Source: Flavobacteriales bacterium (GTDB lineage Bacteria > Bacteroidota > Bacteroidia > NS11-12g > UBA955). Taken from it: 64,000 bases of DNA. Shown here in pieces: positions 22,307 to 26,521 of this stretch. How positions within the stretch are numbered: position 1 is the first letter of the stretch; each line of letters begins with the position of its first letter. Where the stretch lies: positions 1 through 64,000 of the forward strand of contig CANHQZ010000008.1 in assembly GCA_947463125.1 (NCBI GenBank), written 5' to 3'. A model generated the notes under the pieces. That model worked only from the letters and a program-made list of their open reading frames with translations. It did no database searches and had not been told where the DNA came from. A program made the position numbers and the translations under genes.

Positions 22307-22689
22307 TTATTCTATCCATTCAAACAGGTAATTGTCCTCAAATTCAACATTGAATTTCTGCAACATTTCGTGGTATTCATCGTTTGAATTTTGTTTGGCT
22401 GTGATGTTTCTCCTGGTTGTTAATGTAATTTATGATGGTAACGCATTGGGAATGGGCGTAGGGAAAAGCCCCAAAACCGCTCTGCCATTGAAATTTGCCG
22501 GGTATTCATTTTTTTATTGATCCATTTGGAAGAATTGGCTTTGATGTCTTTCACAATTTCTGACAAGCATTTATCGGGACTCAGGCTGAGCAATATGTGA
22601 ATGTGGTCTGCTACCCCACCGATGGCATATATCTTTTGATTTTTGCCGTTTACCGTACCGCAGATGTATTTATACAATTCGTAAACCAA
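22307..22689 (-). pseudogene. Decayed IS200/RAYT-type (Y1) transposase
   Basis: IYAIGGVADHIHILLSLSPDKCLSEIVKDIKANSSKWINKK in one frame, PGKFQWQSGFGAFPYAHSQCVTIINYINNQEKHH in a second, DEYHEMLQKFNVEFEDNYLFEWIE* in a third; N-terminus missing. Confidence 0.85.
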
Positions 22690-23998: not shown

Positions 23999-26191
23999 CT
24001 AACGTTTATAATTTATATCGTTTCCAATAACTTTTATAAAAACACCAACCACCTTTAAGTTTATAGTTCCTTCATCACGTAAAATAATTGGAGGATAATA
24101 ATTACTTGACCTGGGCAGCAAAGTTATTTCCTCATGTTTCCATCCTTCTTCAGAGACCGTCTTCTTGCTTGTGTATTCTTTAACAGTATAATTTGATCCT
24201 GTATCAGAATCATTAAAATCCGTCATTTCCACCAATACTATTTTACCATTTCTGCTTCCACCGATGTACCGTTCAAATAAACAAACTGAATTATTGGGAA
24301 TAATCTTATTCATGGACTCACCAATGACCTTACAAGCAAAATAATCTTTACCTAAATCAAAATCCTCTGTGAGTTCAATATATTTAGTGCTTTCAACTTG
24401 TTGCAACGAAGAAAATGAACCTGCAGCAATTTTAAGGTCATAATACGGAATTGTGCGTTCAGTGGGAGCATCGACGATACTTATGACAGGAACATCTTTA
24501 ACTTTTGTTTGTAACGGTATAAACTGTGTCAAATAATTTTTTAAATTATCATTCACTGCATAAATAAAGGTACCCTTTATACCTCTGAGTAGGATAGTTT
24601 TATAAATATTGACAATATATTCCTTTAAAATACTCTCGGCTGATATGGTATTTTTACCAGCTTTATCTTTATAACGATCTTTATAAATAATAAACTGGTT
24701 GTTTTCAAAATCATAATCTATTTCAGGCCCTATAATCACACCGGTATAATTTAGATCATATCCCTGAGTGGTATGAATGCAACCAACCTCATTAATGGAA
24801 TTGGGAGAATTTACCCAATCTACTGCCACACTATTCCATTTTAGCTTGACATTACTGATTTCTATATCAAATTTATTTTTATCTTTTTTAGAAACCCACT
24901 CCCACGCATAACCCGCAACAAGCCTTGAAAGTCCTTCTTTATTTTCTTTTTCTGATATTTCATTGACTAAATCATCAATATTATCAAACAATTTTAATTC
25001 AAAATCTATTGCTTTAAAGGGATTTAAATTGTTTGTCTTAGCATCAAATAAATTGTGTATAAAATTGACATAATTAACACCCCCTTTTGATCGAAACTGT
25101 GTTCTCAGAGTTTCAATCCGAGTTGATTTATTTTTTTCGAGAATTATAAACCTTTCCCTCGGAACATCCGATGGTTTTATAGATTGAAACCGATCATAAA
25201 ATATTAAACTTTTTTTTGACTGATGCAGCACCCAATCTAATTCAGTACAGGTAAATTTATCCATGCCGAATTTTTCTGATGTAATATCAAAAGGTTTAAA
25301 ATATGGACCCAAATTAACCCGTTGTCTCAACCTATGACCTTCATCCACAATAATCAAATCATACTTTTTCTTTGCTAAGTCAGATGGTCCTATTACCATG
25401 TCGCCTGACAGTCCCTTTATGTTTTTAAAAACCTTGGAAATGGTTTTACGGAATGATGCCATGGGAATAACCAGCGCCATGTTAAGATTAGAGTACTTCC
25501 TTTTAACCTTTTCAATTAATGTAAAAAGTTCTTCATCCTCATCAAAATCTGATGTGTTAAAATCATCAAGATTGGTCTTTAAAAGTTTAAAAATGAAAAT
25601 AGCGAGAATGGATTTACCTGTTCCGGCACCACCTTGTATAAGACTGGTTTTGGCTTCCTCATCCAAAAGGCAGTTAAGAATCATTTTTAAGCTAGAAATT
25701 TGTTCTTGGGACAACGATTTATATGGAGAATATTTAAAAAGATCTGAATTATCAATATGCTCTAGTGAATGACGTGCGATACCGAGACTTCTTAATTCAT
25801 TCCAGATTTCTTTAAAAATATTCCAGTAAATTTCTTTTTGCTGATAATACCGGTGATTGGTAATGCCCAAATTTGCATTCTGCAAGGTGTAAATTCCATC
25901 AGCAGATATGTATCTGATTAGGTAAGATTCAAGGTCCAGTGCTACAGACTTGTTAAAGAGACTGCTTAAAACTAGATGTACTTTGGTGTTTTTCTGTTTC
26001 TGATGGTTCTTAACATGGGCCTTAAGCCTACTAACAACATCTGTTGTTTCTCCAACATATGCTTCTTGCGATTTTTCATTGTTAAGAAAATAAACTATAG
26101 GCCATGATAAAAATCCTCTATGATTTTCAGTTATTTCAATTTCTGTATTTGAATTGAAATCATATTGAAAAATAGAAAATTCTTTGTCCAT
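23999..26191 (-). CDS. GIY-YIG nuclease / DUF2075-type SF1 helicase / S24 (LexA-UmuD-like) peptidase fusion protein
   Basis: GIY-YIG: PIVYFLNN..AYVGETTDVVSRLKAH..LDLESYLI (about 25862-26104). Helicase: QGGAGTGKS (25610-25633), LIIVDEGHR, LRTQFRS, CIHTTQGYDLNYTGVIIGPE, ILLRGIKGTFIYAV. S24: IAAGSF..FACKVIGESMNKIIPNNSV..GKIVLVE..YTVKEY..ITLLPRSSNYYPPI..VVGVFIKVI (about 24002-24445). Confidence 0.88.
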   Translation of the reverse strand: MDKEFSIFQYDFNSNTEIEITENHRGFLSWPIVYFLNNEKSQEAYVGETTDVVSRLKAHVKNHQKQKNTKVHLVLSSLFNKSVALDLESYLIRYISADGIYTLQNANLGITNHRYYQQKEIYWNIFKEIWNELRSLGIARHSLEHIDNSDLFKYSPYKSLSQEQISSLKMILNCLLDEEAKTSLIQGGAGTGKSILAIFIFKLLKTNLDDFNTSDFDEDEELFTLIEKVKRKYSNLNMALVIPMASFRKTISKVFKNIKGLSGDMVIGPSDLAKKKYDLIIVDEGHRLRQRVNLGPYFKPFDITSEKFGMDKFTCTELDWVLHQSKKSLIFYDRFQSIKPSDVPRERFIILEKNKSTRIETLRTQFRSKGGVNYVNFIHNLFDAKTNNLNPFKAIDFELKLFDNIDDLVNEISEKENKEGLSRLVAGYAWEWVSKKDKNKFDIEISNVKLKWNSVAVDWVNSPNSINEVGCIHTTQGYDLNYTGVIIGPEIDYDFENNQFIIYKDRYKDKAGKNTISAESILKEYIVNIYKTILLRGIKGTFIYAVNDNLKNYLTQFIPLQTKVKDVPVISIVDAPTERTIPYYDLKIAAGSFSSLQQVESTKYIELTEDFDLGKDYFACKVIGESMNKIIPNNSVCLFERYIGGSRNGKIVLVEMTDFNDSDTGSNYTVKEYTSKKTVSEEGWKHEEITLLPRSSNYYPPIILRDEGTINLKVVGVFIKVIGNDINYKR

Positions 26192-26521
26192 TTATAACTC
26201 ATTATATTTTTTTGCTGTTCCTTTTGCTTTTTCAACTGGATACTTCTCACCATTTTTTCTAACTTTTTCTAATACAATATCCTTTACATCAAGATTATAT
26301 TTATCGGCTAACAAAAACGCATAGGCAAAAACATCTGCTAATTCTTCTTTTATTTTTTCAGGATTAGCCTCCCCGGCATTTTTCCAAAGAAACAACTCCA
26401 ATAATTCTCCTGCTTCGACATTAACCGCGAGCGCTAAATCTTTGGGATTATGAAACTGTTCCCAGTCTCTTTCATTTCGAAATTTTATTAATGCCTCAGT
26501 TATTTGTGAAAAATCACTCAT
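26192..26521 (-). CDS. MazG-like nucleotide pyrophosphohydrolase
   Basis: FRNERDWEQFHNPKDLALAVNVEAGELLELFLWKN...KIKEELADVFAYAFLLADKYNLD; stop abuts start of helicase gene. Confidence 0.92.
   Translation of the reverse strand: MSDFSQITEALIKFRNERDWEQFHNPKDLALAVNVEAGELLELFLWKNAGEANPEKIKEELADVFAYAFLLADKYNLDVKDIVLEKVRKNGEKYPVEKAKGTAKKYNEL

Follow-up and report, generated by a model that had tools for sequence, protein, structure and literature searches.

A predicted LexA/CI/UmuD-type self-cleaving tail on a MazG-partnered nuclease-helicase and on unrelated ATP-dependent restriction enzymes

The window analysed here, the whole 64,000-nucleotide stretch of Flavobacteriales DNA, carries on its minus strand a gene for a 730-residue protein (P0001) whose start is abutted, directly upstream, by a gene for a MazG-like protein (P0002). 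The features of this locus are as follows.

23999..26191, minus strand: P0001, a GIY-YIG + Schlafen-group-3 helicase + Peptidase_S24 protein, ORF of 730 aa (Pfam)
25913..26098, minus strand: GIY-YIG nuclease domain, residues 32-93 (Pfam, conservation)
24554..25645, minus strand: SLFN-g3 (former DUF2075) helicase domain, residues 183-546 (Pfam, conservation)
24455..24526, minus strand: variable flexible linker, about residues 556-579 (alignment gaps, low pLDDT)
24041..24448, minus strand: Peptidase_S24 (LexA/CI/UmuD-type) domain, residues 582-717 (Pfam, AlphaFold2, Foldseek)
24419..24424, minus strand: predicted scissile bond Ala590-Gly591 (sequence, tail conservation)
24314..24316, minus strand: codon of Ser626, predicted catalytic (sequence, conservation in tails)
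24179..24181, minus strand: codon of Lys671, predicted catalytic (sequence, conservation in tails)
26192..26521, minus strand: P0002, MazG-like nucleotide pyrophosphohydrolase, 109 aa (PF12643, 75.5 bits)

Pfam searches with P0001 returned GIY-YIG (PF01541; 29.1 bits, cut-off 22.6), SLFN-g3_helicase (PF09848; 202 bits, nearly the entire model covered) and Peptidase_S24 (PF00717; 31.9 bits, cut-off 23.3, E 1.2e-7). Residues Y34, Y45, G47, R55, H59 and E88 of the nuclease part are unchanged across 23 aligned proteins, and the sequence of this part has the marks of a GIY-YIG nuclease, namely the Y-x-G motif with the predicted catalytic Arg and Glu. The helicase part is likewise assigned by sequence to Schlafen group 3, as it matches PF09848 and has Walker A (GxAGTGK) and Walker B (DExH) motifs that are invariant in the family alignment. 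In the full-length AlphaFold2 model (pLDDT 80.0, pTM 0.64) the nuclease and helicase were mostly well predicted, and the low-confidence loops were linker residues 564-568 (pLDDT < 50) and the segment of the scissile bond, residues 589-598. The linker ahead of the tail is gapped in the family alignment; an 800-residue GIY-YIG-SLFN-S24 protein at L041 (6112-8514) has about 80 additional residues at this point. Two further genes of this architecture, at L035 and L150, are each split into two ORFs and are possibly pseudogenes.

The MazG-like gene is a conserved operon partner, a MazG gene being found upstream of nearly all GIY-YIG relatives. The P0001/MazG region has a GC content of 32.5%, against approximately 45-50% across most of the window. 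In one genome of the same genus (G535, L208) the MazG-helicase operon is absent from the place equivalent to 26.2-28.3 kb of the window, and in another (G735, L209, 5-1836) a MazG 79% identical to P0002 is followed by a different SLFN-type helicase (27% identity, cut by the contig end). This pattern fits a site at which the MazG-partnered motor gene is exchanged. Neither of the Bacteroidota SOS motifs CTAA-N5-TTAG and GGA-N5-TCC was found upstream of the operon, and SOS control of the operon itself was rejected on this ground. A phage or plasmid origin was also rejected, since viral contigs held no relative of the whole of P0001, no near plasmid match was found, and the phage and plasmid homologues were partial only. 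PADLOC 2.0.0 matched no known anti-phage defence system over most of P0001; its matches were weak and partial, such as that of PDC-S14 to the GIY-YIG part at 32 bits. A short ORF at 22420-22689 on the minus strand of the window resembles, by sight only, a fragment of an IS200/REP-type transposase.

A prior sequence-only reading of this DNA had recognised a LexA/UmuD-type autoprotease signature at the C-terminus of the helicase and had proposed self-cleavage between A590 and G591 by a S626/K671 dyad. The signature was confirmed by the above-threshold PF00717 match and by the predicted fold; the residue numbers agree exactly with the P0001 translation, and the distance from Ala-Gly to Ser, put at about 35 residues, was measured as 36. 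PDB sequence searches gave no match for the whole of P0001 and a weak match to LexA alone for a tail profile (E 0.034), so a fold search was needed. The tail was modelled on its own with AlphaFold2 from an 18-row tail alignment (pLDDT 80.7, pTM 0.78), and the best Foldseek matches of this model were LexA (3k2z), the lambda CI-RecA complex (8gmu), LexA-DNA (3jsp) and UmuD (8gmt/1umu), each with a probability of 1.00. The tail can therefore be assigned, from sequence and model, to Peptidase S24, with a predicted beta fold, a Ser-Lys dyad and an Ala-Gly approximately 35 residues ahead of the Ser. Ser626 and Lys671 are 45 residues apart, which is near the spacing in lambda CI; the corresponding spacing in LexA and UmuD, 37, is shorter.

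Among the Bacteroidota genomes searched, 32 of 395 from the class and 18 of 396 from the phylum have the tail. It is carried by at least five cores: GIY-YIG/SLFN, PD-(D/E)XK/SLFN, PLDc-helicase-DUF3427, type I HsdR and type III Res. Proteins of approximately 1,120-1,155 aa combining PLDc, an SF2 helicase, DUF3427 and S24 are encoded at L043-L047, L132, L136, L141, L145 and L147-L149, where L043, L046, L132 and L141 were assigned by Pfam and the others by length and NUDIX partner. A NUDIX hydrolase gene lies directly upstream, mostly overlapping, in 11 of these 12 cases; the upstream gene of the twelfth, L136, was not recognised by the NUDIX motif used. Two unrelated NTP pyrophosphohydrolases are hence seen as partners, MazG with GIY-YIG-SLFN and NUDIX with the SauUSI-like PLDc-DUF3427-S24 proteins. 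Type I HsdR proteins (HSDR_N + SWI2_SNF2 by Pfam) end in an S24 tail at L049, L050 and L053, with HsdS and/or HsdM genes adjoining at L049 and L050, an AAA ATPase gene at all three loci and an HNH gene at L050. An AAA_15/21 ATPase (with HNH in L050) stands between HsdS and the S24-tailed HsdR at L050 2069-4022 and L049 10255-11487, an arrangement inside the type I loci that we take to be Septu-like. At L054, a ResIII core with the tail lies beside a type III Mod gene. The remaining core comes from the Halomonas plasmid NZ_CP040452.1 (L100, 5968-8438), where a PD-(D/E)XK-like domain, assigned by sight, is joined to SLFN-g3 and the S24 tail is read in a different, overlapping frame. The frame break may be a natural frameshift, a sequencing error or a two-protein arrangement.

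In a phylogenetic tree of S24 domains without canonical LexA sequences, the 48 aligned tails, that of the window included, form a single clade (SH-aLRT 99) that stands apart from UmuD and from Bacteroidota SOS regulators and has phage CI-type repressors as its nearest neighbours. The match to LexA proposed element by element was thereby refined: the order of elements, the dyad and the Ala-Gly stand, and the tree places the tail beside the CI-type repressors, with which the tails have GESMN-IPN in common. Such an ancestry would suit a tail that mimics CI, so that prophage induction, or a phage anti-repressor that sets off CI cleavage, also triggers the motor, either against the induced phage or to kill the cell. 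We consider this improbable, as ancestry alone does not make the phage the signal, damage-triggered alleviation of restriction (set out below) is served by the same ancestry, and no associated prophage was seen.

The tails of HsdR and Res cluster together in the tree, as do most PLDc tails. The tail of L141, however, falls inside the GIY-YIG set in spite of its PLDc-DUF3427 core. In the congeners L032 and L033 the cores are near-identical (dS 0.04) and the tails differ sharply (dS 0.29), chiefly within residues 561-680; judged from these sequences, this is a mosaic exchange of the tail. The L141 swap and the L032/L033 mosaic indicate that the tail moves as a module. What the alignments and tree describe is one mobile, predicted autoprotease module of ATP-dependent restriction enzymes, found on at least five motor/nuclease cores.

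Conservation of the tail is strongest at the residues expected to act in cleavage. The first reading had named two checks that can be made by computation, a predicted S24 fold, which was obtained, and conservation of the serine and the lysine in relatives. These two residues are present in 48 of 48 aligned tails, as is the predicted P1 Ala, and the P1' Gly is present in 46 of 48. The two tails with another P1' residue are those of L003 (AVAS) and L054 (AVAT), with Ser and Thr respectively, and their cleavage rates may differ. Where measurable, pairwise dN/dS of the tails was 0.05-0.18, which denotes purifying selection and hence a domain that is maintained and working. A chance motif is ruled out by the predicted fold, the invariance among the 48 tails and the purifying selection. 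The S24 domains of LexA, CI and UmuD dimerise, and GIY-YIG or HsdR nucleases could gain from pairing, so that the tail might serve purely for dimerisation or as a scaffold with cleavage of no physiological importance; this we hold to be very improbable, because a pure scaffold has no need of the Ser, the Lys, the P1 Ala or the P1' Gly.

The residue at P2 is also biased. Ala-Ala occupies P2-P1 in 45 of the 48 tails (the exceptions have Val in L003 and L054 and Thr in L035), although these tails come from one clade and the 48 counts are not independent. Among 27 distinct other S24 proteins, taken from phages and from the same class, P2-P1-P1' reads Ala-Ala-Gly in 7; in most of the remainder P2 is Q, S, P, K, R or another residue, and in the UmuD group of this set AA is never found at P2-P1. 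The predicted new C-terminus across the tails is mostly ..(I/V/A)AA. The N-terminal fragment of LexA ends in ..VAA and is a ClpXP substrate, and phage CI-type repressors are a class cleaved with RecA*. The difference between the tails and other S24 proteins is suggestive with respect to an exposed degradation signal.

The host genome encodes RecA and ClpX. The MazG-partnered GIY-YIG nuclease-helicase probably restricts foreign DNA, and the following course of events may be proposed for its control. Upon damage to the host DNA, RecA-ssDNA filaments would favour the cleavable state of the tail, and Ser626 and Lys671 would then cut the A590-G591 bond, leaving the motor with a new C-terminus, ...KIAA. 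This Ala-Ala end could be read as a ClpXP signal in the manner of the LexA N-terminal fragment, and loss of the S24 domain, which is presumably dimerising, would disable the enzyme further, so that the net result would be self-inactivation on damage. We consider this built-in form of restriction alleviation, with RecA*-stimulated cleavage, a ClpXP fate and an inactivated motor, to have an even chance of being correct. We advance with rather less assurance the broader view that the single mobile tail on at least five unrelated motors is a common RecA* damage switch exposing an Ala-Ala ClpXP degron, common to type I, type III and SauUSI-like type IV enzymes and to the new MazG-GIY-YIG-Schlafen system.

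A precedent for the outcome is EcoKI, where ClpXP destroys HsdR after DNA damage, proteolytic control of other modification-dependent systems is given by the authors as undetermined, and the alleviation is reported as not being an SOS function (PMC11109961). An SOS-triggered tail would thus reach that end by another route. The non-SOS character of EcoKI alleviation and the want of a Bacteroidota SOS box at the operon count against damage-triggered inactivation.

The main rival to inactivation is activation in the manner of UmuD, in which the intact tail keeps the nuclease-helicase inactive and self-cleavage on phage infection or damage frees an active motor-nuclease. A natural relative at L040 ends at about residue 561, with no tail remnant found downstream of the gene, and plasmid-borne homologues from Paenibacillus, Enterococcus and Lactobacillus align to P0001 only up to about residue 560. 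The predicted product, residues 1-590, resembles such tail-less relatives and could be functional; their existence means that cleavage could leave a stable, active enzyme, which counts against inactivation. UmuD/UmuD' itself is an S24 precedent for activation, and proteolytic activation of defence nucleases is also documented (PMC12799240). On the other side, specific inhibitory docking is unlikely for each of at least five unrelated cores joined by a variable linker to one tail family, type I and type III enzymes are needed immediately on DNA entry, and the UmuD homologues of the same class lack the Ala-Ala at P2-P1. We therefore regard activation as unlikely, though less so than the CI mimic.

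Inhibition of one particular core is disfavoured, since the tail family occurs on cores that are alike only as ATP-driven nucleases. This distribution argues for an effect independent of the core; cleavage might, for example, remove a dimerisation domain or expose a degradation signal. The variable linker, the unrelated cores and the tail swaps (L141, L032/L033) are better accommodated by a generic degron or release than by core-specific docking. The earlier proposal, that a self-cleaving tail on a nuclease-helicase implies regulated activation or inactivation, is supported by sequence and models as the best reading, and is sharpened by the finding that type I, type III and SauUSI-like restriction enzymes have the tail in common.

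A host with damaged or newly unmethylated DNA is put at risk by its own restriction enzymes, and proteolytic restraint of systems beyond EcoKI and EcoA is stated to be an open matter in the same account (PMC11109961). A swappable tail suggests a built-in way to switch dangerous restriction enzymes off (or on) upon DNA damage. If this is true, the tail would be a general post-translational restriction switch that couples the enzymes directly to the SOS signal, and defence motors would join repressors and polymerase subunits as proteins subject to S24 autoproteolysis. S24 autoproteases, Schlafen-group-3 helicases, SauUSI and the type I and III motors are each known; with respect to the open-access literature, what appears new is their combination through a common, putatively self-cleaving tail. 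No description of S24 fusions to HsdR, helicase, DUF2075 or DUF3427 was found in that literature, and an earlier mention elsewhere is possible.

The P0001 tail is similar to LexA, lambda CI and UmuD in its predicted fold, Ser-Lys dyad, Ala-Gly 36 residues before the Ser and order of elements. It differs in its position, at the C-terminus of a nuclease-helicase and without an HTH DNA-binding domain; by Pfam, the N-terminal winged helix of LexA (PF01726) is absent and GIY-YIG and helicase domains are there instead. UmuD is a short S24 protein that stands alone and works with UmuC, whereas P0001 is a 730-aa fusion with a MazG partner and is separate in the tree. SauUSI, a modification-dependent restriction enzyme with PLDc-helicase-DUF3427 architecture, has the same core as L043-L047, L132, L136, L141 and others, but these relatives have in addition an S24 tail at the C-terminus and a NUDIX gene upstream, neither of which is mentioned for SauUSI in the passages found on it (PMC3874153). 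L049, L050 and L053 likewise have the core of type I HsdR, and L054 that of type III Res, with the S24 tail as an extra. For EcoKI, HsdR is described as being controlled through degradation by ClpXP, and no S24-type tail is mentioned (PMC11109961); the proposed outcome, a motor destroyed after damage, is the same, but here the trigger would be autoproteolysis encoded in the motor itself. In the bacterial nuclease-protease pairs of Hachiman and AVAST (Science 2025), a trypsin-like protease switches on a pro-nuclease that is a protein apart, and there too a protease module has been acquired repeatedly by unrelated immune systems (PMC12799240). The protease of those pairs cuts in trans, whereas the S24 tail described here would be expected to act in cis, on the chain that carries it.
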